From Lachnospiraceae bacterium (lineage in GTDB: Bacteria > Bacillota > Clostridia > Lachnospirales > Lachnospiraceae), in the NCBI GenBank assembly GCA_017622875.1, contig JAGAQG010000032.1, positions 1-64,000 of the forward strand: a DNA stretch of 64,000 bases, in the 5' to 3' direction. Position 1 is the stretch's first letter. Each line of letters begins with the position of its first letter. The notes beneath the pieces are model-generated. The model did not search any database. It worked only from the letters and a program-made list of their open reading frames with translations, and was not told where the DNA came from. The translations under genes and the position numbers were made by a program. This document shows positions 16,413-32,999 of this stretch, piece by piece.

Positions 16413-16424
16413 TCCCGCACCTCC

Positions 16425-17030: not shown

Positions 17031-17041
17031 GGCCTCCTTTC

Positions 17042-20000
17042 TTACTCGATTACTTCATCTTCGCCATTACGTTTCTTGATAGAGTTATCACTCCACCAGT
17101 TTTCGCAGTAACTGTCACCGGAGAGCCAGAAATGATCGGTACGGGTGTTGGTAAAAGTCACCGTTCCTTGCTTGTTGTAGGAAGACAGCGATACAGTTCC
17201 ATTCGCAGGCTCAGATGCAACTGCATCATATCGCCAGGACCAATTTGTTAATTCCTGAACAGTATACTCGCCCTCAGGCAGATGTTTGATCGTGGTCGAT
17301 TCATTACCAACGATAACTACATCCATGCTAAAGGAATCAGGTCCTGTCACCCGGAAAATGAAACTTTGATTCTCGTCCTTCGGGTCAGCACCTTGTTTTG
17401 CTATGGTCAAGTCTCCGTAAACATTCAATTCGTACACATTCGTTGCTGTGTAGGAATAAACACGGGTATTGCTGAATGATGTATCCGCTGCTTTTGTTTT
17501 TAGAACAAGATCCGTAATCGCCACCAAATCATTCTCTTTAATGACATACGTTTTATTCGGGTCTGGATTGAATTTACGATTACTGCTATCTACAAAAGTG
17601 GCTGTTCCATACAGTGTCTCTGTATCCACCGTCACATCTGCCGTCGCAACAGGGGAAGATGCACCGCTTTCATACAAGCCAAAGCTAAATGTATGATCTT
17701 TAAGCAGAGTTCCAATTCGGGTCTTATCCTCGTCGGATAGACTGTTGTAGTTAGATACCTCTACCTTTTTGGTTACATTAACACCGTAGCTCTCAAAGTA
17801 AATCTGCAGAATATTATGGCCACTGTAAATTTTGTCCAGACTTGTGGTTGTAGCAAAATCTTTACCGTTGATCTTAGATTTTGTGTGGGTATAATCACTA
17901 AAGCGGCTGTCGCTCATGTGCTTTGCCGCATGATTGATCATTGCTGTGCCGTCACGGTCCAAGGGTACAGTATCCAATTCTGTCAAATCTGTCTGCAATA
18001 CGTCATCAATGTAGTACTCCACTCTCCATGGCAGTTCATTGCCAAAGCTAACATCATCGATGAGGTTTCCCACAGTACCTGTTACATTACCCGTGGGATG
18101 GCAATCATCATAAAACGTCGGGCCTGCAGCAAAGAAGTATCTCGTCAGATATTCACTATTACCTACAATATATGGAGTAGTGTTGTTGTCATAATACCTC
18201 CATTGCTGATGATTTCCGGTGATTTTTCGGATGCTATAAGTAATAGTATATCCATCAACCGTCTTGGTTATTTGCGTTCCGTCTGTATTCTCTCCAGCAG
18301 CTGAAATTAAGGCTTTCAATTGATCTTGGGTTTTAATATGCGAAACTTGTGCAGTAGGGGCCATAATGACGTACATAGTATCTATGGCATTCTCATTCCA
18401 ATAATTATTATTGTCTTTACCATAATTGCCCTGATAGTTTCGCGCTCTATGTGCAAGAGTCCAATACATCTCTGCACCTGGATATGTCAGAACATCTTGA
18501 TATAAAGCTCCTGGATTACTACCGTTAATTTCCGCCAGCTGGTTACCGTCTGGCAAATCAAAATCTGGTTCAACACTATCTACCTTTGAAAAGTCAGGAT
18601 TAGTCACTCCATCTTTTGGTTTAACAATTCCAAATACATTCAGGAACGAATTTGCGCTACTATCATATGTTTTATTTAAATACTCAACGTCCCAAGCCAG
18701 TGTACCGTTATCATCTGCCGGCATAGTGGTCGACCAGTATAGTCCCTGTGTTCCATTGGCAAAGCCTGTGTTTTCCGCCTGAGCAATAGGATACTCAAAA
18801 CTGCCGTTGATTACCTCGTTGCCATAGGGTACCGTAAACGATGCTGAGGCAACTTCTTCACCGTCTTTTTTCGCACAAACGGTATAGGTTTTCATTTCAC
18901 GGTTGCCGTCATTATCCACGCCGCCACGATCCATGGAAACATTTACTGCGCCCTTTTTGACTGCATAACCCTCCTCCAATGCGGCATCATAAATTTCCAC
19001 ATTGTCATCTCTTGACCACACGAATTCTATGTCAGTAGTGTCACGGCCATCCCTAAACACAGGCACCAGACAACCATTCTGCGGAATCTGGTTATCCACA
19101 TACAGTTCATTGTTTGTTTCCAGAATTTCAATCGTAAAGCATTCAGTTTTGATTGATCCATCAGAATCCTTGTACTTAAACTGCAACTTTGCAGTTCCTG
19201 GTTTCAATGCACTTACCTTGAGCCACAGATATGCAAAACGATAATCATTTAATTTACCATCTCCATCCGGATCCATATAACCGTTTGGGACAGAGTTATA
19301 CACTTCAAAACGGACATTGTCTTCTCCCTGCTCAACTGTCCATGTACCCTGAGTTGCATCCAGAATATCCTCACCATTATTCCACTGCCAAACGAAGTAC
19401 TTCACTTCGTTGCGATACATATTTACTGAGGAGCCGTTTTGGATTGTATTTTCCTCGCTTCTAACTATTTCAGAGGCAAACCCCTGTACAATAAATATAG
19501 AAAAGCTGTCCGTCTCAAAGGAGATGGTCCCATCCTCATTTACCGTCACATCACCATCCTCGGAACTGAGCATGGTATAGTAAATGGTATTGCCGCTGTC
19601 GTCGGTGTAAGACTGTGCAGAATCGTTCTTGATGGCACGCTGAATAGCTGCCTGATCATCAAGAATGTGGTAAACCTTAACTTTCTGATCATCCTGAATA
19701 TCTGTTGTATCCAGAGTTATGGTCACATTTTCTCCGGGCTGCCATTTTGTGCCCTCAGAAACGATGGAAATATCAAAAAATTCCACCCAAGAGAAGTATT
19801 CGCCCATGGCAGGGAATACCTTATCCATGATTTCAGCCATCGCCTCGTCGTCGGGAACATCAACGGTAACGGAAGCGCCGTCAGGCAGGCTGCCGGAAAT
19901 ACCGACGGTTCCATCCTGAGATTCAATCTCACCGGGTTCAGATTCGTCCGGTTCTTCCACGCTGGTATTATCCACATGGACATATTTATAGCCACCCAAA

Positions 20001-20848
20001 AGAAGAAATGCTTCGCCCCAACCCAAATCGGTGAATTTGAACTCATACCACTGGGCATTTCCTGCTTCGTCGGTCAGGATAGAAACAACTTCGACTTCGT
20101 AGTTGCCCCGCAGTTCGTAGTAGTCCTTATCCACATTATTGTGGTTTTTATAAACCCGGGAGCCGGTCTTGATCCAGATCTTGTCGCCAATCTGAGGAGT
20201 GTTATCGGCAATCTCCTCAACGGGAGCCACATAGAATTTGCAGCCTTCCTGATGCACGCCCTCAACAGGCTCACAGGTGCAGAGGGTCAGGCAGGTATCC
20301 AGATGCACTGCACCTTCGGTCAGCTCGATGCCGCAATGCTCACACTTAGTCACAGGAGCCTTATACTGAGAGCAGGTATCCAAGTGGCCCTCTAACTGCT
20401 TACACTCATTACATCCTACATCGTTGCCACCAACCGTTTCGCCGTTATTATCGGCAGGGGTGGTATGGTCTACGCCGCAGCTGTCTTTCTTGCAGGTATC
20501 ACACCATGCTTCGTGGGTGCTCTGGCAGTCCACCGTGCCGCACTTATCGCAGGTGGTATGGGTCAGACCGCAGTCGTACTTTTCGCAGGTGTCGCAGTAG
20601 ACGTGGGTCGTCTCACAGTTTTCAGCACCGCATACGGTACAAACCACCGGGGTATCATTATTCAAAAGATTAATTGGATTCAAGGAGCAGGTATCTGTAT
20701 GTGCGTCAGATCCGCCGCATTCCTCGCATACTTCTGTTACCACAACATCGTTGTCACTGACACCTTCCGTTGCAAAAGCATTGATCGGGCCGTTTGTCAG
20801 CATAAGGAAACAGAGGAGCAAAGCGGTTGCTCGTTTCATCAATTTCAT
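17042..20848 (-). CDS. large Cys/His-rich secreted adhesin-like protein
   Basis: This 1268-residue protein has a signal peptide (residues 1-26). Residues 41-203 hold eight Cys/His motifs of two kinds: four tandem C-x2-C-x4-C-x3-H units (70-82, 85-97, 100-112, 116-128) and four units ending H-x3-C (41-54, 146-159, 169-186, 190-203). These would bind zinc or form disulfides. After a beta-rich domain (about 300-460) and a long central region comes a C-terminal SpaA/prealbumin-like domain (about 1144-1240, with EGEYTVQEL and GTVTFTNTRTD). There is no C-terminal membrane or sortase segment, so it is probably held by partner proteins. AGGAGG supports the start. It sits between tasA-like genes, and its role in adhesion or biofilm is inferred. 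Confidence 0.75.
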   Translation of the reverse strand: MKLMKRATALLLCFLMLTNGPINAFATEGVSDNDVVVTEVCEECGGSDAHTDTCSLNPINLLNNDTPVVCTVCGAENCETTHVYCDTCEKYDCGLTHTTCDKCGTVDCQSTHEAWCDTCKKDSCGVDHTTPADNNGETVGGNDVGCNECKQLEGHLDTCSQYKAPVTKCEHCGIELTEGAVHLDTCLTLCTCEPVEGVHQEGCKFYVAPVEEIADNTPQIGDKIWIKTGSRVYKNHNNVDKDYYELRGNYEVEVVSILTDEAGNAQWYEFKFTDLGWGEAFLLLGGYKYVHVDNTSVEEPDESEPGEIESQDGTVGISGSLPDGASVTVDVPDDEAMAEIMDKVFPAMGEYFSWVEFFDISIVSEGTKWQPGENVTITLDTTDIQDDQKVKVYHILDDQAAIQRAIKNDSAQSYTDDSGNTIYYTMLSSEDGDVTVNEDGTISFETDSFSIFIVQGFASEIVRSEENTIQNGSSVNMYRNEVKYFVWQWNNGEDILDATQGTWTVEQGEDNVRFEVYNSVPNGYMDPDGDGKLNDYRFAYLWLKVSALKPGTAKLQFKYKDSDGSIKTECFTIEILETNNELYVDNQIPQNGCLVPVFRDGRDTTDIEFVWSRDDNVEIYDAALEEGYAVKKGAVNVSMDRGGVDNDGNREMKTYTVCAKKDGEEVASASFTVPYGNEVINGSFEYPIAQAENTGFANGTQGLYWSTTMPADDNGTLAWDVEYLNKTYDSSANSFLNVFGIVKPKDGVTNPDFSKVDSVEPDFDLPDGNQLAEINGSNPGALYQDVLTYPGAEMYWTLAHRARNYQGNYGKDNNNYWNENAIDTMYVIMAPTAQVSHIKTQDQLKALISAAGENTDGTQITKTVDGYTITYSIRKITGNHQQWRYYDNNTTPYIVGNSEYLTRYFFAAGPTFYDDCHPTGNVTGTVGNLIDDVSFGNELPWRVEYYIDDVLQTDLTELDTVPLDRDGTAMINHAAKHMSDSRFSDYTHTKSKINGKDFATTTSLDKIYSGHNILQIYFESYGVNVTKKVEVSNYNSLSDEDKTRIGTLLKDHTFSFGLYESGASSPVATADVTVDTETLYGTATFVDSSNRKFNPDPNKTYVIKENDLVAITDLVLKTKAADTSFSNTRVYSYTATNVYELNVYGDLTIAKQGADPKDENQSFIFRVTGPDSFSMDVVIVGNESTTIKHLPEGEYTVQELTNWSWRYDAVASEPANGTVSLSSYNKQGTVTFTNTRTDHFWLSGDSYCENWWSDNSIKKRNGEDEVIE

Positions 20849-20866
20849 TTCAGTTTTCCTCCTTCC

Positions 20867-21445
20867 TTATTCAGCAGGCCAACCGGCAGCTTCCAATGCG
20901 GATGCTCCATTGTTGGCTGTCTGCACACCCTGAGCTTTTACGATCACCTCAACGGTGCAGTTCTGATATTCATTGGTCATATTGGGGCCGTCAAAGACGA
21001 CTTCCGTAAAGAAGGCTTCCGTCGATTCGCCGGTCTTGACGGGGGCATTGTAATACCACCATTCACCGTCGCCGTCCTTGCGAAGCCAGTCCTCACCATT
21101 CATGGTCAGGGTAATGATACTTGCCAGAGTTTCCGGGGACAGCTCCATAACTGTCTTATCTGCTCTGGTAATGACTACCTCAAACTTCGCACGGATATAG
21201 GCTTCCGCCTCCAAATTTTTAATTGTTGCAATTTTGCTTACAGTCACACCGGGCATGACTTCGATTTTCTCATCCGGATACGGATTTCCAATCTCGTCCT
21301 GCCATTCTTCGATCTCAATGTCCACAGCGCCTGACGTGATCACATTGTGAACCTGATCTTCGGATGTGAAGTAAGCGAGCGTTCCTGATGCAAGGATGGC
21401 CGCACATATTGCCACCGCTGCCAGGAGTAAAATTTTCTTCTTCAT
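20867..21445 (-). CDS. TasA/camelysin-like protein with SipW-cognate signal peptide (fourth copy)
   Basis: This is a 192-residue protein. The start at 21445 is set by GAGAGGAG upstream; the frame stays open to 21610 without a ribosome site. The N-terminus has MKKK, a hydrophobic helix, then GTLAYFTSEDQVHNVITSGAVDIEI, the hallmark of SipW-dependent export. The mature domain carries VMPGVTVSKIATIKNLEAEAYIRAKFEV, the same fold signature as its neighbours. It is a probable extracellular fibre or matrix subunit. The adhesin gene starts 18 bp downstream. Confidence 0.82.
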   Translation of the reverse strand: MKKKILLLAAVAICAAILASGTLAYFTSEDQVHNVITSGAVDIEIEEWQDEIGNPYPDEKIEVMPGVTVSKIATIKNLEAEAYIRAKFEVVITRADKTVMELSPETLASIITLTMNGEDWLRKDGDGEWWYYNAPVKTGESTEAFFTEVVFDGPNMTNEYQNCTVEVIVKAQGVQTANNGASALEAAGWPAE

Positions 21446-21518
21446 ATACCGTGCTCCTCTCGGTCTTATTGTTGCATCGTAAACGATGACTTTTTGTTGA
21501 TTTTTATGGCGAAAGCAC

Positions 21519-21592
21519 CATATGAGAATATCCGAAGCCGATTTTTCAACTTCGGGTACTCTCATATGGCCCCTGCCCAAGGAGGGCAGGGA
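21519..21592 (-). other. two strong hairpins between the third and fourth tasA-like genes
   Basis: CCATATGAGA and TCTCATATGG pair over an inner CCGAAG/CTTCGG stem (about 21521-21570), followed by a CCCTGCCC/GGGCAGGG hairpin (about 21572-21592). There is no strong T run. These structures in the 165-base gap could limit read-through or protect the 3' end of the upstream message, adjusting subunit ratios. Confidence 0.6.
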
Positions 21593-21610
21593 GCCAATAG
21601 GAAAATTCAA

Positions 21611-22390
21611 TTAAGGATTAACGGTTGCTTCGGTATCAACCCAGGTCTTACCAGAAACAGTCTTCCAATCGATCTTGCTGGTGTAAGTAGGAGCAGTAGG
21701 ATCACCGAATGCAGTGTTCAGAGCTTCATAAGCATTTTTGAAGCCTGCTGCCTGAGTACCTTCTGCTGCTACGTAGATATACCAGTTGTCACCCAGAGTC
21801 TTCTTAATCTTGGTAATATCGTCGTTAGTGGTCTTGGAATCCAGATAAACCTGGCTCATAGCATCAACAGTAGCTTCGCTATTCTTCAGTGCGGTTTCAT
21901 AGGTCACAACGTAGACGTTGTAAGAAACGTTGTCGATATTAGTCTCGTAGAAGTTCCAGTTGCTGCCAGTAGTGCCATCAACGGTCTTAGACCAGTTCCA
22001 CTTGCCATCAACAACGGAGTCGTTGTCGTAGTTGAAGTGCAGAACGTTCTTGGATGCATCGAAATCAGGCTGAGCATTATCCAGAATGGAAGGAATAGCG
22101 ATGTGCACACGAACATAAGCATCTTCGGAGCCAGTGTTTTCAACATAAACTTCCTTTTCGATGCCGTTCTTCAGAGTGCCATTCTGAGCAGAACCAGTAG
22201 CAGGGATCAGTTCCTCAATGCCCTGATCATCGTTGTCACCGAAGTCTTCCCACAGGTCAATAGCCACATTGCCGGTGGTGAAGGTATTCTTCTGTACGTC
22301 AGTATCAGAGAAGTAAGCCAGAGTGCCGCCGATAACGGCAGTTGCTGCCAGGGCTACGACCAGGCAGAGGGAAAGAATTTTCTTCTTCAT
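21611..22390 (-). CDS. TasA/camelysin-like protein with SipW-cognate signal peptide (third copy)
   Basis: This is a 259-residue protein. The N-terminus is MKKKILSLCLVVALAATAV, then GGTLAYFSDTDVQKNTFTTGNVAIDL, an excellent match to the SipW-cognate signal class. The mature part includes VENTGSEDAYVRVHIAIPS near the middle. It is the closest of the five to the classical TasA/CalY form and a good candidate for the major subunit. A ribosome site (AAAGGA) lies 11 bases before the ATG. It is followed by the hairpin region at 21519-21592. Confidence 0.87.
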   Translation of the reverse strand: MKKKILSLCLVVALAATAVIGGTLAYFSDTDVQKNTFTTGNVAIDLWEDFGDNDDQGIEELIPATGSAQNGTLKNGIEKEVYVENTGSEDAYVRVHIAIPSILDNAQPDFDASKNVLHFNYDNDSVVDGKWNWSKTVDGTTGSNWNFYETNIDNVSYNVYVVTYETALKNSEATVDAMSQVYLDSKTTNDDITKIKKTLGDNWYIYVAAEGTQAAGFKNAYEALNTAFGDPTAPTYTSKIDWKTVSGKTWVDTEATVNP

Positions 22391-22436
22391 AGTTGTAAAT
22401 TTCCTTTCTTAATTTGGATTTTTTGCTTGTTATGTA

Positions 22437-22453
22437 AAAGGCTTTGCCTTTTG
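22437..22453 (-). terminator. short terminator-like hairpin after the second tasA-like gene
   Basis: A perfect 7-bp AAAAGGC/GCCTTTT stem with a 3-base loop lies just after the stop at 22467, with TTTT completing the minus-strand side. It is weak and more likely attenuates than ends transcription. Confidence 0.4.
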
Positions 22454-22466
22454 CATCAAAATGGGG

Positions 22467-23213
22467 TTAGTTGCCGGAAACATTTTTCCACGCTTCATAC
22501 GCTGTGAAGTTTTCTGTATTGTTCTTCCAATACTGACTTGCGTATGCAGTGAATGTCAGTGTAGGCTTGGTTGCGTCAGTAACTTCATTCATCATTTCCT
22601 TGGTTACATCAGGCTTGGTTAACACTTCCTGCTTATCCCAGGTGAAGTTAACGCCGTCAAAGGTATATGTACCTGCATCCAGAATCTTGATGTTACGGTC
22701 TTTTGTAACTTCATTTACGGGTCCGGATGTCACATAAACGCCTGCAACTGCCTTGTCCTGGTCATCCGTCAGCGGAGTCCAGTTAGCTGTATCAATCTTG
22801 TATCCAATGAAGTTATCAAAGCTGTAGGTTTTGCCGTCAACAGTAACGTTGCCGCCTTTCTCCTCAACCTTGATAAATACCCAACAGTCTTCGCTGCCGC
22901 CCTTGACTGTTACCCAAGGGTCTTTCGGAATCGTCCAACCAGGGATCATTTTGTAGTTGTCAACGCCGGTGGTCGTTTCCGTATTGGTCAGCTCGTCTTT
23001 GTCTGGATCGTACTCATGTTCCTGCAACGTAATGTCAATGTCGCTGGTAGTGAATACATTGGTGACTTCATTGGTCTTGGCAGTCAGCCAAGCAACTGTG
23101 CCGCCGATCACACCACCAACCAGCAGGACGCAAGCCAGAACCAGAGCCAGAGACTTGCTGCCGAATTTTCTACGGTGATGGCGACCTTTATGTTCGTATC
23201 TGCCTTTGCTCAT
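22467..23213 (-). CDS. TasA/camelysin-like protein with SipW-cognate signal peptide (second copy)
   Basis: This is a 248-residue protein. A long basic leader (HHRRKFGSK) precedes the hydrophobic helix, then GGTVAWLTAKTNEVTNVFTTSDIDITL. The mature part has MIPGWTIPKDPWVTVKGGSEDCWVFIKV, the conserved PG...P.VTV...S.D..V pattern shared with the first copy. AAGGAGG upstream of 23213 fixes the start. It follows the first copy by 96 bp and is probably a structural partner of it. Confidence 0.83.
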   Translation of the reverse strand: MSKGRYEHKGRHHRRKFGSKSLALVLACVLLVGGVIGGTVAWLTAKTNEVTNVFTTSDIDITLQEHEYDPDKDELTNTETTTGVDNYKMIPGWTIPKDPWVTVKGGSEDCWVFIKVEEKGGNVTVDGKTYSFDNFIGYKIDTANWTPLTDDQDKAVAGVYVTSGPVNEVTKDRNIKILDAGTYTFDGVNFTWDKQEVLTKPDVTKEMMNEVTDATKPTLTFTAYASQYWKNNTENFTAYEAWKNVSGN

Positions 23214-23309
23214 GTCGTGTTCCTCCTTTCTTCGATTTTTTGCTTTGGGTTATTTCAACAGATGGAGGAACACGGGTTCACATCCGGTGAAAACAATGTG
23301 GATTGAAAT

Positions 23310-24026
23310 TTACTTGCTGAACGCAGCCCAGGCTTCATCGGCATCAGCGAAGCCATCGGCCTGAATAGCGTGAGCGGTAACAACGATTTTTACATCTGCC
23401 AGATATGCCAGGTGCTCGTTGTCAATCTCGCCGGGAACGGTAATCGTCTTGAACAGGTCATCCAAAACTGTTTCGTTAGCAGACTTCACAACAATGCCAT
23501 TACCAGGGTTTTCGGTATCGTTACCTACATAGCGGAACTCATAGCAGTTGGCGTAAGTGCCTTCGGCGTGGAATGTTTCAAACTGCCATACGTCTTTATT
23601 CCAAGTCAGATTGCCGTCCTTATCCACACACAGGTTCTGCAGCAAGAACAGATCATTATTGTAGAAAGTAGGGAATTTGTCTGTGGGCATGGCTTTTTTC
23701 AGACTGTCCAGACCTTCGACCTTAACCATCATACGGACATAAGCATCTTCACTGCCAGCATCTACAGTTACGGTAGGATCTTTGTAGTAAGTGTGGCCAG
23801 GAAGCAGATGGTACTTATTTGCCTGCACACGGGAGTCGTGATTGGTTTCATAGGAACCATCCGTTTTCACGTCAGCTTCATCCAAAGACAGACCCACGGA
23901 GCCGACTGTGAATGTATTCGTGACAGTATCTTTGTCGGTCAGGTAGGCAAGCGTGCCGAAGATGGATACGGCTACTAAAAGTACCGCACACATCGACAGG
24001 AGCAATGCCTTGTGTTTGCTTTTCAT
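23310..24026 (-). CDS. TasA/camelysin-like protein with SipW-cognate signal peptide (first copy)
   Basis: This is a 238-residue protein. I set the start at 24026 because AAGGAGG lies eight bases upstream; the frame is open to 24101. After MKSKHK and a hydrophobic helix comes FGTLAYLTDKDTVTNTFTVGSVGLSL. The mature part holds LLPGHTYYKDPTVTVDAGSEDAYVRMMVKV. It is the first substrate gene after sipW, as in other sipW-tasA loci. Confidence 0.85.
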   Translation of the reverse strand: MKSKHKALLLSMCAVLLVAVSIFGTLAYLTDKDTVTNTFTVGSVGLSLDEADVKTDGSYETNHDSRVQANKYHLLPGHTYYKDPTVTVDAGSEDAYVRMMVKVEGLDSLKKAMPTDKFPTFYNNDLFLLQNLCVDKDGNLTWNKDVWQFETFHAEGTYANCYEFRYVGNDTENPGNGIVVKSANETVLDDLFKTITVPGEIDNEHLAYLADVKIVVTAHAIQADGFADADEAWAAFSK

Positions 24027-24156
24027 CTTGGTTTCCTCCTTATTAAAATGTATATAGGGAGCCTTTCGGCATTGCCCTCGTTTCGTCAAAACAAGCTCCA
24101 TATCCCTCGCTTCCGTCCAAAGGCCAAAAGCTCGCTCATTTCGCTGTTTTTCCTCT

Positions 24157-24191
24157 TCAAATCGAACCCGCTTCGCTGGGCTTCGATTTGA
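24157..24191 (-). other. hairpin between sipW and the first tasA-like gene
   Basis: A perfect 10-bp stem pairs 24157-24166 with 24182-24191, extended by an inner CCC/GGG. No T run follows on the minus strand, so it is more likely an RNA-processing or stability element than a terminator. Confidence 0.5.
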
Positions 24192-24199
24192 TTGCTTGT

Positions 24200-24757
24200 T
24201 TAGCGGGGCTGTTCAAACTTGCCCTGCTTTTTCTTCTGCTTCTTTTCTTCATCTTCATCACTGCCAAACAGATCAGGCAGGAATACCAACAGAAGTAGGA
24301 TTGCACCGGCTGAAATCGCAATGTATGTACCGGGCGGGTTCTGGATATAATTGGCTACATAGCCCAGCTTCGGAATGGTGAACACCGGAGAGCCAATTAC
24401 ATTTTTATAATGTACAAGGGAGCCATCTTCCGCTTCGTTTGCATCGCCTTTGGTCTTAAAGCGCACAACGGTGGAATCTGTCTCGTCGGGAACAACCTCC
24501 ACAATGCGGTGAGTGGCAACCGTGTCCTCATCCAGCATAAAGGTGATCACATCACCGCTTTCCAGTTCATAAGGGTCAACATCCTTTACATAAATCAGGG
24601 AGCCGACATGATAGGTAGGTTCCATGCTTCCCGAAAGGACTGTGAAAACCTGCAGGCCGATCAGCCTTGCACCAACCAAAAGCAACGCAAGAATCACAAC
24701 GACTGCCACAAAGACAGTTGTGAACCAGTTCCATATTTTTTTTACAGTTTTACTCAT
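24200..24757 (-). CDS. sipW: SipW-type signal peptidase I
   Basis: This 185-residue membrane protease has a TM segment near residues 14-34, the catalytic Ser in VLSGSMEPT, and His in the VATHRIVEV position instead of the Lys of ordinary bacterial signal peptidases. This is the archaeal/ER-type Ser-His form. The GDANEAEDG box, a second TM near the C-terminus and a Lys-rich tail follow. In Bacillus SipW processes TasA and TapA; the five SipW-cognate precursors downstream are its likely substrates. I take the ATG at 24757 as start because homologues begin there; the frame runs open to 24949 and the best ribosome site (GAAGG) is rather far upstream. First gene of the operon. Confidence 0.9.
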   Translation of the reverse strand: MSKTVKKIWNWFTTVFVAVVVILALLLVGARLIGLQVFTVLSGSMEPTYHVGSLIYVKDVDPYELESGDVITFMLDEDTVATHRIVEVVPDETDSTVVRFKTKGDANEAEDGSLVHYKNVIGSPVFTIPKLGYVANYIQNPPGTYIAISAGAILLLLVFLPDLFGSDEDEEKKQKKKQGKFEQPR

Positions 24758-24785
24758 GACTTTTATATATGACCTTCTTTCCTTT

Positions 24786-24803
24786 TTGAGAGAAGGGCTT
24801 CTC
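24786..24803 (-). promoter_or_regulatory. hairpin just upstream of the sipW ribosome site
   Basis: GAGAGAAG/CTTCTCTC form a perfect 8-bp stem with a 2-base gap, immediately before AAAAAGGAAAGAAGG. It lacks a T run, so it could affect translation or mRNA stability rather than termination. Confidence 0.4.
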
Positions 24804-24928
24804 TCATCCCTCTTGAAAACAGGAAAAGCGACGATCTGCTGACCGCCGCCTAATCTTTTTATAAGCACGGCCACGATCATGACTTGCAGTGCTGGCATGC
24901 CGCAGACAATCTGCTTTCGCTCTGCCGC

Positions 24929-24948
24929 ACATAATTCATATAATGTCA
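24929..24948 (+). repeat. recombination-like site A of the invertible region
   Basis: ACATAATTCATATAATGTCA. Two 7-bp arms (ACATAAT and ATAATGT) with a TCAT centre, the layout of a tyrosine-recombinase core site. It matches the reverse complement of site C at 19 of 20 positions and lies exactly 50 bp from site B. Confidence 0.7.
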
Positions 24949-24978
24949 ACCTGTAGATATGAAAGCGTCCTGTTTGGA

Positions 24979-24998
24979 ACGTAATTCATATAATGTCG
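24979..24998 (+). repeat. recombination-like site B of the invertible region
   Basis: ACGTAATTCATATAATGTCG. Same orientation as site A, 18 of 20 positions identical to it, offset by 50 bp. Inverted relative to site C. Confidence 0.65.
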
Positions 24999-25051
24999 TG
25001 CTTATAGACTGTTATTCAGTTGTTAAAAATAGCTTTACCTATTTTTGAGCG

Positions 25052-25114
25052 CACAAAAGCACACCCTCCCAACGGTTTTTTTGAAAAATCGACTATGAGG
25101 GTGTTTTTGTGTTG
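25052..25114 (+). terminator. large hairpin inside the invertible region
   Basis: CACCCTC and GAGGGTG pair, extended outward by imperfect GCACAAAAG/TTTTTGTG pairing and inward by CGGTTTTT/AAAAATCG. On the + strand a TTTTTGTG tract follows. In either orientation it lies upstream of the promoter and would insulate the switch from read-through. Confidence 0.5.
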
Positions 25115-25183
25115 CCCGTCGATAAGGCAAAAAACTTTTATGAGTTTGCTTGAAAGTGAAATGTACTTTTTCCATGTCCTATC

Positions 25184-25212
25184 TTGATTTTTTCAGCTAT
25201 GTATGCTATACT
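25184..25212 (+). promoter_or_regulatory. strong promoter within the invertible region, pointing away from sipW
   Basis: TTGATT (25184-25189), exactly 17 bp, TATACT (25207-25212), with TG one base before the -10 (extended -10). No + strand gene follows it; transcription would meet the hairpin of site C. Confidence 0.75.
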
Positions 25213-25257
25213 TGTGTCGATTGAAAATTGGATATTTATGATTGCAGATACTGTGTT

Positions 25258-25287
25258 CCCTGACATAATATGAATTATGTTAGGGCT
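25258..25287 (+). terminator. site C, inverted recombination-like site doubling as a terminator
   Basis: Bases 25261-25280 are the inverted copy of site A. The surrounding CCTGACATAAT/ATTATGTTAGG arms form a hairpin with one G-U pair, followed by CTTTTTTATT on the + strand. It would stop transcripts from the promoter at 25184 in the present orientation. Confidence 0.65.
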
Positions 25288-25315
25288 TTTTTATTCCCTA
25301 TACAACCAGCCCCAG

Positions 25316-26137
25316 TCACTCGATTTTTCTGCGATGTTCGGTGCCGGTGGTCATAATATAAATGCGTGTGGTATCAATGCTGCTGTGGCCTAAGATGTCT
25401 GCCAGTTTCGCAATATCCTTTTCGATTCCATAAAAAGTTCGGGCAAAGAGCTTACGCAGATTGTGTGGGAATACCTTGCTGGGATTTACACCGGCTTCCT
25501 CGCACAGCGCTTTCATCTGCGCCCATATACAACTGCGATTCAAAGGTTTTCCGTTTCGGGTGAGAAAGATCACGCCGGAGCGGATTTTTTCTTTTTTAGC
25601 ATACTCCAACAGCAGCTTTCTCAGCTTGCCGGGAATCAGAATGGTTCGGGTCTTACCCTTACAATTCACAAGGACTTCGCCCTGTTTTACATCTTCAACC
25701 GTGAAGAACTTCAACTCTGAAACACGGATGCCGGTGCCGCAGATCGTCTGCATTACCAGCTGCAGTTGGGGTTTATTTTTTGCCGCTTCCAACAGGCGCA
25801 TATACTCTGCCTTGGACAGTTCCTTTTCTTCGGCGCAGTAGACCTGTTTCTGCTGTTTGATGGCTTTCACCTTGCAATCAGACCAACCGAGAAAGTCCAG
25901 CAGACTGTTCAGACTTGCCAACATGGAATTGATGGAACGCACCGCATATTCTTTGATCTGCAATTCCTTTTTGTAAGCCATCACCACCTCTTTCGTAATT
26001 ACTTCACCACCAACATAAACGACAAAAGCGCGAGCATCCCGGAGATATTTCTCCACGGTTGCCGTGCTTTTTTCTTCCCGGATCAAATATTGGTGATATG
26101 ACTCCATTTGGGTATTTGTAATTTTTCTTTCTTCCAT
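25316..26137 (-). CDS. tyrosine recombinase (XerC/D-like integrase or invertase)
   Basis: This 273-residue protein is complete. An N-terminal SAM-like core-binding domain (about residues 8-90) precedes the catalytic domain, with all active-site residues visible: R138 (GTGIRVSEL), K160/K162, H225 and R228 (HNLRKLF), H251 (ILGHSS) and the nucleophile Y260 (TTRIYIM). The start at 26137 has AGGAGG eight bases upstream. The gene lies 35 bp from site C, so it is the obvious candidate enzyme for inversion of 24929-25280. It also heads the mobilizable-element-like region, so integration/excision is the alternative role. A degenerate paralogue lies at 32223-32852. Confidence 0.9.
   Translation of the reverse strand: MEERKITNTQMESYHQYLIREEKSTATVEKYLRDARAFVVYVGGEVITKEVVMAYKKELQIKEYAVRSINSMLASLNSLLDFLGWSDCKVKAIKQQKQVYCAEEKELSKAEYMRLLEAAKNKPQLQLVMQTICGTGIRVSELKFFTVEDVKQGEVLVNCKGKTRTILIPGKLRKLLLEYAKKEKIRSGVIFLTRNGKPLNRSCIWAQMKALCEEAGVNPSKVFPHNLRKLFARTFYGIEKDIAKLADILGHSSIDTTRIYIMTTGTEHRRKIE
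25398..25423 (+). repeat. 26-bp direct repeat, left copy (inside the intact recombinase gene)
   Basis: This stretch matches 32236-32261 at 25 of 26 positions, same orientation. It encodes the KDIAKLAD segment of the recombinase. The homology of the two recombinase genes ends abruptly at this repeat on the right-hand copy. Confidence 0.65.
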
Positions 26138-26250
26138 TTTTGGTTTCCTCCTGAGATTTACAATCAAATTTGTTCAGTATCCATATTGTACCCAATCTTC
26201 AAACAAATTTGCCGCAAGACACAGCAGGAAAAGCACATTTTCGTTTCTGA

Positions 26251-26349
26251 TACACAGTTGAGCCAACTGATAATCTCAATTATGCGCAGTATAACTGTGT
26301 AAGTCAATGCAAATCCGCAGTTTGACCGGGCAATAATAACCACTGTGTA
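26251..26349. repeat. three ACTGTGTA motifs between the recombinase and the XRE regulator
   Basis: TACACAGTT (26251-26259) and AACTGTGTA (26293-26301) are a perfect 9-bp inverted pair. ACTGTGTA recurs at 26342-26349, near the probable XRE promoter. They could be operator half-sites for the divergent regulator or arm sites of the recombinase. Confidence 0.45.
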
Positions 26350-26391
26350 TTGTAGAATTGTTTACAGAACAATTAGAAGGTGGTGATCTGT

Positions 26392-26700
26392 ATGGAAAGA
26401 GAAGATTTTTGCAAAAGACTGACGCAGCTGCGCATGAATAAAGGCGTTTCTGCCAGAGATATGAGCCTGTCCATTGGCCAGAGTCCCAATTATATTATTG
26501 GCATTGAAGGCGGCAAGAATTATCCTTCGATGGAAACTTTCTTTTATATCTGTGATTATTTCGGGATCACACCAAAAGAGTTTTTTGACTTGGAATCCAC
26601 AAATCCGAGTAAAGCGACTGAATTGATTGAGATCATCAAGTCCCTGCCTAACGACCAGTTGGATCTTTTCATTGCCCTTGGCAAAGCAGTAAAAAAATGA
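26392..26700 (+). CDS. XRE-family transcriptional regulator
   Basis: This 102-residue protein has an N-terminal Cro/C1-type helix-turn-helix (about residues 7-62: LTQLRMNKGVSARDMSLSIG, SPNYIIGIEGG, FFYICDYFGITPKEFF) and a short helical tail. I use the ATG at 26392, eleven bases after AGAAGG; GTG codons upstream extend the frame to 26380. It is divergent from the recombinase gene and so well placed to control it and the element. A GGGAGC/GCTCCC-type hairpin follows at about 26708-26727. Confidence 0.85.
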   Translation: MEREDFCKRLTQLRMNKGVSARDMSLSIGQSPNYIIGIEGGKNYPSMETFFYICDYFGITPKEFFDLESTNPSKATELIEIIKSLPNDQLDLFIALGKAVKK

Positions 26701-26786
26701 TGTAGTTTTCAGCTCCCTGCGGGGAGCTGCTCTATTATAATAATATTTAGAAAGTACGAAGGATAAGATACGTCAGAGAAAACTGG

Positions 26787-26876
26787 CAAGCAATGCTTGT
26801 GGCTATCCACATAGCCCCAAACGCTTGTTGAGGGTTTCCCCCAAGCCCCCATGAGAACGCATGATTTCATCATGCG
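26787..26876. other. structured non-coding region, candidate oriT
   Basis: Three perfect hairpins occur in 90 bases: CAAGC/GCTTG (26787-26799), GGCTAT/ATAGCC (26801-26816) and CGCATGAT/ATCATGCG (26858-26876), with C-rich single-stranded tracts between the last two. The 300-base gap 26701-27003 holds no convincing gene. A cluster of hairpins in an element with a relaxase and MobC suits an origin of transfer, but the nick site cannot be identified. Confidence 0.4.
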
Positions 26877-27003
26877 GCTACGCATCCTTCGGACGCTTTT
26901 TACAGTAGAAAAAACAGATGGATATGTTATGATATTTCCAGAACAGCAGGTACATCTGATCTATTTTTCTATGTCGGATTGCTGCGGCAAAGGAGGTACA
27001 GCG

Positions 27004-27192
27004 ATGGATTATACAATGGATGATGCAAAGAGAATGCTCCGGAGGGTCGCAGAGATTATGCGTGCTGGACTGGCAGAAGATGCGACCGACGAGGACAAAG
27101 CAAAGATGCAAATGCTTGTGTCCAACGATTACCGGGAGGTCAATGCCATGATCGAAAGTTTGCTGGCTCCCGATCCGGAGATAGAAAAATAA
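27004..27192 (+). CDS. small hypothetical protein of the element
   Basis: This 62-residue acidic, helical protein starts at 27004 with a strong AAAGGAGG seven bases upstream; the frame is open further left to 26851 but without a ribosome site. It begins MDYTMDDAKRMLRRVAEIM. I recognise no family and see no membrane segment. It lies alone between the hairpin region and the mobA terminator, convergent with mobA. Small proteins of this kind are common cargo or regulatory genes of mobilizable elements. Confidence 0.6.
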   Translation: MDYTMDDAKRMLRRVAEIMRAGLAEDATDEDKAKMQMLVSNDYREVNAMIESLLAPDPEIEK

Positions 27193-27241
27193 ACTTTGGA
27201 GATAAATTTTAAGACGTTTTAATAAGCCAATAACTAAAAAA

Positions 27242-27287
27242 TGAGCCACGACTACTACTCTATTTTCGGAGCAACAGTCGTGGCTCA
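27242..27287 (-). terminator. intrinsic terminator after mobA
   Basis: A perfect 12-bp stem (TGAGCCACGACT/AGTCGTGGCTCA) is followed by TTTTTTAG on the minus strand, directly after the stop at 27290. Confidence 0.85.
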
Positions 27288-27289
27288 AT

Positions 27290-28681
27290 TTATCGCTGTT
27301 CTTGTTTCTTCTGTTCTTCTTCCATACCGAGCATACAATCCACGTTAGATTTGACGGTAAGCAGTTCCCGCATTTCATCACGGGCTTTTCGGAACTCACC
27401 AAAGGCTTGCTTCTTTTCCTCCAGCAATCGGGCATACTCTGCATCAAGGCTTTTCTTTGTGGGGATCTTTGTCAGCCCCAACTCGTCAAAGGCTTTCTTT
27501 GCAGCCTTATGAAGAATAATATCCGATTCGTGCTCCGCAAGGTACTTCTTGGAGTATCCAGACTTCCGGTAGGCCACATACACCTCACGGGTTTTGGAAT
27601 AGTTGATGATATGTGTTCTAAGAACTGCGACTTCTGCCATGCGAGCTTCCGTTGCCTTGATCTGTGCCGACAAGGTATTATGCCTGCTGGTTGCTTCTTC
27701 GGTTTTCTTTTTCAGGGCATTGTATTCCAGAAGGTTATGATCGGTCAGGTAGTTCATAGCCTGTGCCATCTGCTTCAGGTTATAAACCTTTGCCCACCGA
27801 GCATATCCAACACCTTTTCTTTTCAATCTCGTCTGAAGATCAATAAGCAGATTGACCTTGGGATTCTCCGCAGCAACAGACTTCTTCCTGCGGGGGTTAT
27901 GTTCTTTCTCACCGGATAGAACATCCAGCAATTCATCCTTGGAATAGCCATCGCCCAGCGTGTCCAGGCGGATAAAACGCTTCTGATCTTTTCAGCGGAA
28001 CGCAAGTTGCTTCCCTTCCTTGATTTCATAACCAGCATCTTTCAGTAACTGCAACAGCGCATCCAAATCATCCGGTTTCTGCGCAAGAGCATTGTCAATG
28101 GCTATTCGTAGCAATTCTCGATGGGAAGGCTTGGCCTGATCGCCTAACCACTTATCGTAGCTCTGACTATGACCCTTTGAATTCTCTACAATGGAATACC
28201 CATTTTCAATACAGATGGTGTCATTCAGCCTGCGAACTGCTTTCGTACTGCCCCAAAAGTTCCGGAACTTCCGGTCACACTCCAGGGTCGTGGAGTTCCA
28301 TATAATGTGATTGTGTATGTGCTTCTTGTCAATGTGCGTACAGACAATGTAAGCATGATTGCCCTTTGTGAATCGCCTTGCCAGTTCCTGTCCAAGTCGG
28401 TTTGCTTCTTCGGGGGTAATCTCGCCGGGAACAAAAGACTGCCGAAGGTGATATGCAATTACATTATCACTGCCACGATCCCGACCGGTCTTTCTCTGGT
28501 ATAGCTGCTTCGTGTATAGAAATTCGGCATCTGCTATTTTACTGTTACATTGGAAACAGGTAATCAGCCTGCCATTATCCGTCTTTTGCGGATTTGCAAC
28601 ATAGTCGATGATGTCGCTGATTGCCTGACCAACCGTGCGCCCCTTACCGGCATGGAGCGGCATAATTCGTGTGGTAGCCAT
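27290..28681 (-). pseudogene. mobA: MobA/relaxase gene with an in-frame TGA
   Basis: Read through, this would be a relaxase of about 463 residues. The start at 28681 follows GGGAGG. The N-terminal part has the relaxase fold: HAGKGRTVGQAISDIIDYV, the conserved AYHLRQSF, and the metal-binding HIDKKHIHNHIIWN. The frame is cut by TGA at 27992-27994, after KQLAFR; the same frame continues at once with KDQKRFIRLDTLGDGY, which is conserved sequence, and runs to 27290. One base change (GGA to TGA is the simplest) explains it. The first 230 residues keep the nicking domain, so a truncated relaxase could still cut DNA. The C-terminal coiled part would be lost unless the stop is read through. Confidence 0.8.
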
Positions 28682-28706
28682 AATACGTTCCCTCCCTTCC
28701 AACGAA

Positions 28707-28733
28707 AAGGAGCAGCCATCACGACTGCTCCTT
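28707..28733 (-). terminator. terminator-like hairpin before mobA
   Basis: A 9-bp perfect stem (AAGGAGCAG/CTGCTCCTT) followed by TTTTCGTT on the minus strand. It overlaps the stop codon of the gene at 28719 and may reduce transcription into mobA. Confidence 0.5.
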
Positions 28734-29159
28734 AGGTATATTGCTATTCTGTTTTTGTGATTTCAACTGTGCGGTGCGTTCCACATCTACATAATGCGTT
28801 GCGTATTCCCGTTCAATTTCCGGTCTGCCACTTTTACTGAACCGAAGTGGGATCACAGGCTTGTGTCCCTGCCCGTTTTTCTTCTGAACGCCCCACTGCT
28901 TATAATAGCAAAACGACGGTTTCAGATTCTGCTTTTTGGCATAGATCCGGATCTGATGCATGATAAAGGACAGCTTGCGAAGATTGACAGTACAAACGCT
29001 CTCCAGATAGCTGACTTTTCCGAAACGCCATAATTCATACTGCTTCTTGGGCAGCACACCAACATCCATCAGCACATCCACAGGGGCAGCATAACCACGC
29101 TCTTTACATTGCCTGTACATTGCAGAATGAACAGCACCAATCAACTGCGCATCATTCAT
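28719..29159 (-). CDS. hypothetical mobile-element protein
   Basis: This is a 146-residue basic protein. The N-terminal half (NDAQLIGAVHSAMYRQCKERGYAAPVDVLMDVGVL) looks like a short helical DNA-associated domain. The C-terminal half is rich in Lys/Arg. I recognise it only as a type of protein found between AlbA_2/ATP-binding and relaxase genes in Clostridia elements. Its start overlaps the end of the 29152-30675 gene by 8 bases, so the two are translationally coupled. Confidence 0.6.
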   Translation of the reverse strand: MNDAQLIGAVHSAMYRQCKERGYAAPVDVLMDVGVLPKKQYELWRFGKVSYLESVCTVNLRKLSFIMHQIRIYAKKQNLKPSFCYYKQWGVQKKNGQGHKPVIPLRFSKSGRPEIEREYATHYVDVERTAQLKSQKQNSNIPKEQS

Positions 29160-30675
29160 TCTTGTTCTCTACCAAACAAATCTTCTGATTTCTGGAATGG
29201 ATACGTTCCGGTTCCGAATACACAACTTTTCCTTCGGCAATCAGTTCCTTTATGGCCTTGGTGATTGTACCGGATACTTTCGCATATCCCATGGCCGCTG
29301 CCAGCTCCGTTGCCGGGAGATTTCCAGAAGTCTCCAGCGTGTCCAAAATCAGCAGTTTGATTTCTGCAAGGGTTCTTCTTTTTGCCTTGCCCTGGGACGG
29401 AACGGTATTGTCAGCATGAAGGAAACTGTCGTGAACCGGAAGAATGACTGTGAAATAAGTTCTCTCCGCATCCGTTTCAAAAATCGGTGGTTGTGAACCA
29501 TTGGTTTCCATTGCCCGCAGTATCGTGGGGATACCGGTGTTGCGTCCTTCTACCAGCTTCAGTTCCTTCAGGAAGTCACCAATACGGCGATTGCGATACC
29601 GTCTGGAAATCATGCGCCGGTTCTGGATGTCCTCATCAGAAATTGTCCGGTCAGGCCCCGGCAGGCTGGTAATTTCCATGCGGTCAGGTGTAATCATAAC
29701 CGTGATCGGCTCTCCGATCTGATACGACTTGTGATAAATGGCGTTGGACAAAGTTTCTTCCACAGCATCATAGGGATAGTTATATATCCGTACTGCTTCA
29801 GCCTGTCCGGAAATCTTCGTCACCTTTTCCTTAATAATATAGTTCTTGATATAGCTCAGTGCGTCCCGCAGCTGGCGATCCAGCGGCCCGGTGAAAACCT
29901 TTTCCGTCATCCCGATGCCGGTAGGGTCAGGCTTATCGACAACCTCAATACGGGCATAGGGGAAGAACGATTCCGGCTGTTCATTAAAGAACATCAGACC
30001 TACATTCAGCGGACGCCGCATCTCAGAGGGGCCGCCAATCAGCCGCATGGATGTGGCGATTTCTTCCACGGGTCTGCGCAGAGAAGCACTGTGAAGATCA
30101 CTTCCCACCGTATGCAGGAACTCAGAAATCAGGCTGGACTTCATATCCTCCACCCGTGCCATCAGGTTTGCCCGGTCATCGTAAGGCTGGTTGTTTGCCA
30201 GCAGAATCAATTCCTTTTCTTCCAGAGCGTTGGCACGGATGCTGTTGGACATTTTGCGGATGTAGTATGCCTTCTCCGCTTTCTTTGCCTTTTCCGTAGG
30301 GAACGCCACCGGACACTTATACGGTCTGTCAGGGCCACCCGGCACCCACAGTACAATAATTTCCTTGCCGTCAAAGGTGGTCTGCTCCACGATGGGGATG
30401 TACCTGGGTTCGATCAGATTGCACTTTTGCAGCAGTTCTTTGTTAATACGGTCGATGGAACTCTTTTCAAGGCCCCGGATTGGGAACTTGGGCATACCAT
30501 CTTCCTCGTCGATGCCGATGATGATATAGCCGCCGCCCCAGTTGTCAATATCATTGGCAAAGGCACAGATAGAGTGCAGGATCGGCTCCGGATTCCAGTC
30601 ACCTTTGTATTCCACACGGGCGTTCTCTACCACCCGGCGATTGATCAAATCAGATATATTGATTGGTAATGGCAT
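29152..30675 (-). CDS. AlbA_2 (Schlafen AAA_4)/ATP-binding protein
   Basis: This is a 507-residue protein. The N-terminal AlbA_2 (Schlafen AAA_4) domain spans about residues 12-130 (VEYKGDW, ICAFANDIDNWGGGYIIIGIDEEDG). A middle region with ATP-binding-like features (EETLSNAIYHKSY, RNTGIPTILRAM, about 310-400) resembles the RecG-like C-terminal domain of this family. A C-terminal winged helix (about 435-495, LLILDTLETSGNLPATELAAAMGY) follows. Such proteins are seen as putative regulators or DNA-binding factors on mobile elements, and their role is not settled. AGGAGG supports the start. Five 12-bp repeats lie just upstream. Confidence 0.85.
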   Translation of the reverse strand: MPLPINISDLINRRVVENARVEYKGDWNPEPILHSICAFANDIDNWGGGYIIIGIDEEDGMPKFPIRGLEKSSIDRINKELLQKCNLIEPRYIPIVEQTTFDGKEIIVLWVPGGPDRPYKCPVAFPTEKAKKAEKAYYIRKMSNSIRANALEEKELILLANNQPYDDRANLMARVEDMKSSLISEFLHTVGSDLHSASLRRPVEEIATSMRLIGGPSEMRRPLNVGLMFFNEQPESFFPYARIEVVDKPDPTGIGMTEKVFTGPLDRQLRDALSYIKNYIIKEKVTKISGQAEAVRIYNYPYDAVEETLSNAIYHKSYQIGEPITVMITPDRMEITSLPGPDRTISDEDIQNRRMISRRYRNRRIGDFLKELKLVEGRNTGIPTILRAMETNGSQPPIFETDAERTYFTVILPVHDSFLHADNTVPSQGKAKRRTLAEIKLLILDTLETSGNLPATELAAAMGYAKVSGTITKAIKELIAEGKVVYSEPERIHSRNQKICLVENKNE

Positions 30676-30710
30676 TGTCTGCCTCCTCTCTGGACAAGTA
30701 AAGCGAGCGT

Positions 30711-30771
30711 TCTTTCCCTTTAACTCACTCTCTAACTCTCCCTTTATCTCACCCTTTAACTTACCCCTTTA
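30711..30771 (-). repeat. five 12-bp iteron-like tandem repeats
   Basis: Read on the minus strand the units are AAAGGGGTAAGTT, AAAGGGTGAGAT, AAAGGGAGAGTT, AGAGAGTGAGTT and AAAGGGAAAGAA. The period is 12 bp (13 for the first). They sit 36 bp upstream of the AlbA_2 gene. Iterons of this size bind replication initiators or repressors; autoregulation of the downstream gene or a replication/transfer site are both possible. Confidence 0.6.
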
Positions 30772-30861
30772 TTTTAGCAGATATACGAAAATAATCAATA
30801 GATTTTGCAAAGTCTCAGAACAACAAATGCTCCAATACCACCTGGCACCGGAGCATTTCCG

Positions 30862-30951
30862 TCATTTGTTTTGTTCCCTATCATGCCGACCCATAAGCAA
30901 GCCGACAAAAAATGTGATGATTGAGAAGATTATAACCCGGAGAACATTCAT
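30862..30951 (-). CDS. very small membrane protein (DUF3789-like)
   Basis: This 29-residue peptide consists of a single hydrophobic helix (VIIFSIITFFVGLLMG) and a charged tail RHDREQNK. It starts at 30951 with AGAGAGGA seven bases upstream. Size and layout match the small DUF3789-type proteins found in Firmicutes conjugative and mobilizable elements, next to a CD1845-like gene. Function unknown. Confidence 0.5.
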   Translation of the reverse strand: MNVLRVIIFSIITFFVGLLMGRHDREQNK

Positions 30952-30964
30952 TGCCAGTCCTCTC

Positions 30965-31246
30965 TTACCAAGACAGGATAGCACAGCGCAGATCCTGTAC
31001 CTTACCGATCATCCATGCCGCTGCCATCGGAAGTCCCATCGGACTTGCGACAAAAGCAAGGACAAAAAGGATCACAGCGTTCTGCACATTGCCGGAGATC
31101 AGAACCAGCAGGCCAAGCAGACCAATCAGCGTACCGGCAAGGCCGAATACAAAAGAGGAACAGTAAAGGATTGCAGAGCAAATCCAAACGAACAGCGTCA
31201 ATACCAATGTGACGGGAGCCATCAAAATCTTAAAAAGCACCTTCAT
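30965..31246 (-). CDS. CD1845-like small membrane protein of mobile elements
   Basis: This 93-residue protein is almost entirely hydrophobic with three predicted helices (about residues 8-30, 34-52 and 56-82). AAGGAGG upstream of 31246 fixes the start. The sequence resembles the CD1845 family carried by Clostridia integrative elements, of unknown function. It lies 13 bp before the 29-residue gene and is probably co-transcribed with it. Confidence 0.7.
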   Translation of the reverse strand: MKVLFKILMAPVTLVLTLFVWICSAILYCSSFVFGLAGTLIGLLGLLVLISGNVQNAVILFVLAFVASPMGLPMAAAWMIGKVQDLRCAILSW

Positions 31247-31342
31247 GGGAAAACCTCCTTGTGCGTAATCATTGTTTCTTATCTACTTTAATTTTACCGT
31301 ACCTGGATATATTTTCAAGGATGCGCAGAACAAAAGAAAAAG

Positions 31343-31384
31343 AGCGGAGGGAGCGACGGTATAAACTCCGTTTCTCCCTCCGCT
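31343..31384 (-). terminator. intrinsic terminator after mobC
   Basis: A perfect 11-bp stem (AGCGGAGGGAG/CTCCCTCCGCT) followed on the minus strand by CTTTTTCTTTT, just past the mobC stop at 31405. Confidence 0.85.
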
Positions 31385-31404
31385 GCATGGGGTTTTTAGT
31401 CCAT

Positions 31405-31746
31405 TTACGAGATTTTACCCAGCTGGGTCAATATCTCTTTCATCCCGGCTAAGAGGGCATCTTGTTTTTGGAGTATATCTTCCAAGTCCGCATCGTAAAT
31501 GCGCCCGGTTTCATGCACTCGACGGGTCGGCTGATTGATGTTGTTACTGGTGTAGCGCAACAGGGTAAGCATTTCTTTGATTTCAGGCATATCCAGATTT
31601 ATCACATATCCGTCAATCGCCATCTTCCGCAGATAGGCTTCTCTGTTCTTCGTCCCAACTTGGGACATTTTCTTTTCGATCAATTCAAGCTGATGTTGCG
31701 ACACACGAAAATTCAGCTGAATATCGCAGGTTCTTTTCGCCGCCAT
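31405..31746 (-). CDS. mobC: MobC relaxosome protein
   Basis: This 113-residue protein has an N-terminal ribbon-helix-helix-like part (IQLNFRVSQHQLELIEKKMSQVGTKNREAYLRKMAIDGY, about residues 9-48) and the MobC signature LRYTSNNINQPTRRVHETGRIY. MobC proteins bind near oriT and help the relaxase open the DNA. It starts 4 bp after the stop of the DUF3849 fragment, so the two form one unit, ended by the terminator at 31343-31384. Confidence 0.85.
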   Translation of the reverse strand: MAAKRTCDIQLNFRVSQHQLELIEKKMSQVGTKNREAYLRKMAIDGYVINLDMPEIKEMLTLLRYTSNNINQPTRRVHETGRIYDADLEDILQKQDALLAGMKEILTQLGKIS

Positions 31747-31750
31747 ATTC

Positions 31751-32852: not shown

Positions 32853-32944
32853 ATGCGATACCTCCTATCAAGTAGTCATAGTATCTGCATTTTACACCCC
32901 TCACTATCCATAAACCTTCTAAAATATATAACTATTTTCTCATG

Positions 32945-32976: not shown

Positions 32977-32999
32977 CTATGTAGAATCTTAATATTTGC

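Follow-up and report, generated by a model that had tools for sequence, protein, structure and literature searches.

The window, a stretch of 64,000 nucleotides, holds a run of genes that begins with a sipW-type signal peptidase gene and continues, all on one strand, to about 15.6 kb. The following genes make up this predicted operon:

24203-24757, minus strand: sipW-type signal peptidase, opening the proposed operon (TIGR02228 score 103.5, cut-off 51.85)
23313-24026, minus strand: SipW-dependent TasA/camelysin-like protein (TIGR04088 cognate_SipW above cut-off, PF12389 below cut-off)
22470-23213, minus strand: secreted protein whose likeness to TasA is limited to position and N-terminus, without Pfam match
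21614-22390, minus strand: SipW-dependent TasA/BsaA-like protein (PF12389 and TIGR04088 above cut-off)
20870-21448, minus strand: SipW-dependent BsaA-like protein (TIGR04088 above cut-off, TIGR04090 below cut-off)
17045-20848, minus strand: large secreted protein of 1268 aa, without Pfam or NCBIfam match, with a 51% homologue at the Holdemania locus L050
16428-17030, minus strand: BsaA-like protein (weak; TIGR04090 E 9.8e-6, below cut-off)
15621-16412, minus strand: final gene of the run, for a secreted protein that by reading has a membrane anchor at its C-terminus, without family match

The top score of the first gene was obtained with the NF046067 SipW model (120.8, under its cut-off of 190), and the protein encoded at 22470-23213 gave a weak match to an HtrA model, far under the cut-off. 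With a SipW-type peptidase followed by SipW-dependent proteins, the predicted operon has the layout of a SipW-TasA (BsaA) operon and would be expected to make fibres. The G+C content is mostly higher at about 16-32 kb than in the flanks. Rfam analysis of positions 15000-33000 found nothing besides a 6S RNA at 15007-15187 (minus strand, RF00013, 52 bits), which lies outside the switch described below.

A tyrosine recombinase gene and inverted sites next to sipW

On the other side of sipW from the fibre-type genes, the window carries the following features:

24929-24948, plus strand: site A, gene side, inverted partner of site C
24949-25260, no strand: candidate invertible segment of 312 bp, bounded by A and C
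24979-24998, plus strand: site B, degenerate extra copy with the direction of A (18 of 20 positions against A)
25055-25115, no strand: internal hairpin behind the promoter, by reading T-rich after it on both strands
25184-25212, plus strand: promoter-like TTGATT-17-TATACT with extended -10 (TG), facing the recombinase, that is, OFF for sipW
25261-25280, minus strand: site C, recombinase side, ACATAAT-TCAT-ATTATGT, within the hairpin (25258-25285) of a one-way terminator with a T run after it
25316-26137, minus strand: tyrosine recombinase of 273 aa and candidate invertase (Pfam matches to Phage_integrase, E 8.3e-25, and to a SAM-like N domain)

Residues R137, K161, H224, R227, H250 and Y259 of the recombinase are invariant across a 22-row alignment, and we take them to be the catalytic residues of this tyrosine recombinase. 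The best matches among solved structures were Xer-type recombinases; the protein, Xer-like, stayed under every NCBIfam cut-off. The gene starts at 26137 and reads toward site C.

A second recombinase of the same family (32226-32852, minus strand) is 55% identical to the intact one and truncated: it lacks about 41 aa internally, and the C-terminus is missing at the junction with mobilization-type genes. When the window was searched in frame for the missing end, only the intact gene and the truncated gene itself matched well. The stretch 26380-32240 contains an XRE-type regulator, a relaxase-like gene in two frames and a MobC-like gene (named by reading), and is probably a decayed mobilizable element adjoining the switch module.

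In the 64-kb window, sites A and C are the sole inverted 20-mers that lie 60-600 bp apart and agree at 19 or more positions, and none of 100 shuffles of the 1.5-kb region contained such a pair. Site B is degenerate in Holdemania L050, too. A sequence-only reading of the same DNA had placed the three sites where we find them, with the reverse complement of C matching A at 19 of 20 positions. It had also described a near-consensus promoter at 25184-25212 facing away from sipW and a terminator formed by site C, and both are there: site C folds into a hairpin of -15.1 kcal/mol (z -5.4), after which comes CTTTTTTATT. Some of its details had to be adjusted. The 7-bp inverted arms around a TCAT centre, ascribed to each site, are exact in C but have one mismatch in A and two in B; B is present as a repeat, but as a weaker copy (17 of 20 positions against the reverse complement of C). 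The complete recombinase gene said to begin 35 bp from site C is intact and lies at that distance, but it is the 3' end with the stop codon, not the start, that faces the site.

Promoter-like sequences were found in the window region at chance level (20 consensus matches versus 17.5 expected), and we dropped a consensus match alone as evidence for a promoter. The predicted promoter at 25184-25212, whose -10 ends 68 bp short of the end of the site-to-site segment, stands out by its conservation in relatives, not by consensus alone. Behind it, the stretch 25050-25125 folds with -25.5 kcal/mol on the plus and -22.0 kcal/mol on the minus strand (z -4.2 and -2.4). The hairpin herein (25055-25115) was not picked up by the terminator scan; judged from its fold, it might block recombinase/operon read-through in either orientation. 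Another terminator-like hairpin (24851-24826, minus strand) is located in the sipW leader, between site A and sipW, in a stretch that is well conserved in Holdemania. It may provide a second layer of control (attenuation), and orientation is perhaps not the sole control of the operon.

Site pairs accompany the recombinase in relatives

A scan of species genomes for relatives of the recombinase returned at least 594 loci. The best 80 were used with their flanks, so that they do not represent a random sample. Within these best 80 of at least 594 loci, an inverted pair scoring at least 16 was found past the recombinase in 59 of the 65 that have at least 300 bp downstream, the same layout as in the window. 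The upstream flanks of the best 80 yielded two such pairs, and shuffled sequences yielded none (0 of 335). The six loci lacking a pair at this threshold were L069, L089, L099, L120, L124 and L127; a 13-bp pair is present in two of the six. Among the 59 pairs, again from the best 80 of at least 594, the near arm begins no more than 100 bp from where the recombinase match ends in 58, both sites have exact ACATAAT/ATTATGT arms around a 4-base centre in 41, and 57 fit ACATAAT-N4-ATTATGT with at most two arm mismatches. The centres are of 36 kinds and agree within the pair in 57 of 57 cases, partly by how the pairs were found.

Within the window's family, 39 of 200 genomes (the window's own included) match the recombinase at E ≤1e-40, some of them many times (10 matches in G029, 12 in G180). 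In G046, a single contig, all six family recombinases have a pair of their own (score at least 15), and all six pairs are different. Other genomes with several copies gave own pairs for 8 of 12 recombinases (G180), 2 of 3 (G015), 1 of 2 (G167, where the other contig ends at a site) and 3 of 9 (G029, with several short contigs). The three pairs of G029 are located farther downstream, at about 210-830 bp, and their motif is different.

Viral contigs were analysed as well. Out of 80 viral loci 33 were tested, comprising all 15 with at least 45% identity (4 too short downstream) and 18 of the 65 more distant ones (1 too short). Each of the 11 loci with at least 45% identity and enough downstream sequence had a pair (two of them identical), and the distant recombinases (at most 40% identity) scored at most 12 in 17 of 17 tested cases. 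Neither the ON-junction nor the OFF-junction pattern was matched in the viral contigs.

Promoters face both ways among relatives

The segments between the sites usually carry a promoter-like sequence at a set position. In 47 of 60 segments (the window plus 59 from the best 80 of at least 594 loci), the top promoter scored at least 9 and ended 40-75 bp from the end that it faces, compared to a mean of 2.3 and a maximum of 5 in shuffles. Of these 47 promoters, still within the best 80 of at least 594, 36 face the recombinase and 11 the gene. Under a margin rule, the promoter pointed away from the gene in 37 of the same 60 segments and at the gene in 13, with 10 unclear. The excess of OFF (37:13) may indicate that flipping is rare in some members. 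One fixed orientation across all relatives had been named by the sequence-only reading as an outcome that would refute a switch; instead, the promoters face both ways.

Both orientations were seen between related species in three comparisons (L102/L113, L072/L077 and window/L052). The two Clostridia MAGs with loci L102 and L113 are colinear in the recombinase (83%) and in the downstream genes (73% and 65%), and the segment between them is reversed over its length from one site to the other (74%); 67 bp of its interior also match in the same direction, as from a palindromic middle. The L072 and L077 segments are reversed over 199 bp at 80%, with homology past the far site extending some 20 bp only. 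The window and L052 have the same promoter hexamers at equal distance with opposite facing, and their promoter ends are reversed at 70% over 101 bp. Between the segments of the window and L054, some stretches match in one direction and some in the other, consistent with a palindromic middle.

One-way terminators and contig ends at the sites

From the recombinase end to slightly beyond the near site, a hairpin that would stop transcription toward the recombinase was predicted in 43 of 59 loci (the window plus 58 from the best 80 of at least 594). A hairpin of the opposite direction was found in the same stretch in 1 of 59 (shuffles 2.0). Shuffles control only weakly for palindromic sites such as these, and the better control is to compare the two directions and the two sites with each other. 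Outward terminators were found at the recombinase-side site in 40 of 58 loci versus 3 of 58 at the gene-side site, among the best 80 of at least 594. Such a one-way terminator at the recombinase side is expected if the promoter really fires that way when OFF. Terminators inside the segments (11 forward and 10 reverse among 60, shuffles 4.8) are no strong feature of the family.

Contigs tend to end close to the sites. Within 300 bp past the recombinase match, contig ends were found downstream in 15 and upstream in none of the best 80 of at least 594 loci; within 1,000 bp, the numbers were 22 and 1 of the same best 80. Six of the 15 near downstream ends fall 0-4 bp past a site, where the two orientations would diverge. 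Contig breaks at the sites fit mixed orientations without proving them, and contigs can also break for other reasons.

The genome of the window itself has a second sipW-tasA operon (G000:C40:1-1250; L006, L048). Its contig begins inside a site with the centre GCAC, about 30 bp before the operon. In the 2.74-Mb assembly (87.7% complete), exact arms occur at the two sipW operons only, and neither a partner site nor an adjoining family recombinase was found for the second one in this assembly.

A candidate invertible promoter, probably caught OFF

The short segment is bounded by inverted repeats (A and C), as in invertons; a predicted promoter lies within it, at the position seen in 47 of 60 family segments; and a recombinase that should be capable of inversion, with catalytic-type residues intact, is encoded nearby. 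We assign a probability of roughly 0.88 to the reading that 24949-25260 is an invertible promoter for the sipW/TasA-like operon, caught in the OFF orientation. The sequence-only reading had arrived at the same proposal, which gains support from the pairs in 59 of 65 relatives, the two promoter orientations, the L102/L113 inversion and the contig ends. That it was 'probably caught OFF' is borne out by the direction of the promoter together with the one-way terminator.

According to our model, the recombinase (25316-26137) would bind the inverted sites A and C, cut around their common TCAT centre and flip the segment. In the sequenced orientation, the promoter would fire toward the recombinase and transcription would halt at the site C terminator, leaving sipW unserved. 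After a flip, the promoter would come to lie at about 24997-25025, facing sipW, and sipW and the SipW-dependent fibre-type genes would be driven down to about 15.6 kb. Action of the recombinase on A and C, inversion in this strain and transcription that tracks orientation are the predictions of this model.

An unlikely alternative is a fossil switch, which inverted in ancestors and is now either locked OFF or has left sipW to be served by another promoter. The window and its closest relative, Holdemania L050, are two hosts with the same OFF orientation, and both the degenerate extra site B and the arm mismatch in A would fit this view. Against it, the recombinase reading frame is unbroken and retains the residues expected, A and C still agree at 19 of 20 positions with identical centres, and the module is 91% identical to that of Holdemania over 2,047 alignment columns with the sites kept.

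Less probable still is that the recombinase serves as the integrase of a mobilizable element to its right (to about 32.2 kb), with the 20-bp sites as the cores of attachment sites. The relaxase- and MobC-like genes at 27290-31746 (by reading) and the truncated second recombinase at 32226-32852 would fit such an element. In relatives, however, the recombinase was mostly found without a match to these genes: the window's relaxase pieces were matched at 4 of 84 loci and the MobC-like protein at none, with these queries and many short flanks, which leaves 80 of 84 loci lacking a match to either. Holdemania L050 has the same recombinase, sites and sipW, and no relaxase or MobC match in 10 kb on either side. 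The close inverted pair in 59 of 65 relatives (from the best 80 of at least 594), inside which a promoter usually has a set position, also speaks against attachment-site cores. Given that sites and promoter are found again where the window's relaxase genes have no match, we rejected the integrase reading.

That the inverted repeats are transcription terminators only, unrelated to recombination, agrees with the terminator-like hairpin of site C but is hardly credible and was rejected as well, since the gene-side copy rarely has a terminator T run (3 of 58), the many kinds of centre are matched within pairs (partly by pair-finding) and the intervening segment is inverted between relatives.

Relation to known switches

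Invertible promoters are already well known as a kind. A literature search (titles and abstracts, top-ranked results, mostly non-subscription) found no inversion switch of a sipW-tasA locus, in agreement with the sequence-only reading, which knew of no described locus controlled this way. The closest system in print is inverton group 139, associated with invertase group 35 in the text of PMC11892184; we liken it to the present family by description, not by motif. Of the 33 invertons in this group, 32 are from the class Clostridia and almost all have a tyrosine-type recombinase nearby; for Clostridium sp. D5 and Intestinimonas butyriciproducens, flipping is seen in read data (PMC11892184). Its printed spans of 257 and 255 bp are within the range of the present family. 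The terms 'TasA' and 'signal peptidase' are absent from the main text of PMC11892184, and the group 139 coordinates printed there gave no match to the G180 positions when compared by eye. Likewise, there is no mention of TasA or signal peptidase in the passages of PMC5903667 or in a term search of PMC10939037.

A DNA inversion switch for a fimbrial operon is represented by fimS of E. coli, a 314-bp invertible element flipped by a tyrosine integrase (FimB; PMC9993118). In contrast to fimS, the present recombinase belongs to a different branch and the fibre is different. Against the NCBIfam models of tyrosine-type DNA invertases, the recombinase reached at best E 5.8e-5 and 22.8 bits, with a cut-off of 221.

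RecV of Clostridioides difficile acts in trans on several sites, and its flg switch works after transcription starts. The present recombinase genes, in contrast, have their own adjoining sites, and the segment carries the promoter. Common to both is site-specific inversion upstream of a surface or regulatory operon, as in the flg and cmr switches (PMC5386303, PMC6837544 and PMC8890394).

The sipW-bsaA operon of Clostridium perfringens resembles the present candidate: it is a matrix operon that is ON in some cells of a population and OFF in others, but its bimodality needs a two-component system and PilA2 (text of PMC7395162). 'Inversion' and 'recombinase' are absent from the main text of that study. 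BsaA and other SipW-dependent matrix proteins are made by part of the population, in C. perfringens via a regulatory network (PMC7395162). A heritable DNA flip would be another route to division of labour in gut Clostridia. As such a flip would show up in ordinary sequencing reads, gut metagenomes that are already available could be used to measure the ON fraction. Further surface switches could be found by the site rule, ACATAAT-N4-ATTATGT shortly after the recombinase.

Neighbouring genes and possible movement between hosts

Holdemania sp., a member of the Erysipelotrichaceae, aligns with the window from sipW up to some 100 bp short of the recombinase start. The window itself probably belongs to the Lachnospiraceae. 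The run is flanked on either side by housekeeping-type genes, as judged by reading, which argues against misbinning. By a slight preference only, we favour the view that a self-contained cassette moves between gut bacterial families and has repeatedly been fitted to sipW-tasA operons. It would consist of recombinase, promoter and sites, the recombinase-side copy doubling as a one-way terminator, and each copy's own centre would act as an address, so that several surface systems per genome could flip independently. Two family members are found in records titled Collinsella (Actinomycetota; L083) and Rhodospirillaceae (L092); the latter is a MAG and maybe misbinned.

Matches to the two SipW proteins (E ≤1e-5) occur in the flanks of 15 of the best 80 of at least 594 loci, those of L066, L112 and L116 being weak (26-33%). 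In 9 of the same best 80, a SipW-like match begins no more than 200 bp beyond the far site, and the window together with these nine comprises 8 OFF and 2 ON segments (L053 and L081). On the recombinase tree, the sipW label requires about 12 changes, at least 8 of them forced by well-supported branches; shuffled labels gave a mean of 14.8 changes and were as low in 14 of 500 cases, indicating weak clustering. The label is a loose one, covering 16 rows that include the window and L054 (a general signal peptidase match) and leaving out L059. Since it needs several changes on the tree, the pairing with sipW was gained or lost repeatedly.

Outside a 12-locus sipW set, 45 first downstream genes were found, 30 of which were scanned against Pfam. 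Nine of the 30 gave no Pfam match. The other first genes include those for LRR, SpaA-like, GLUG and C-type lectin proteins, and also for regulators, nitronate monooxygenase and SPFH proteins.
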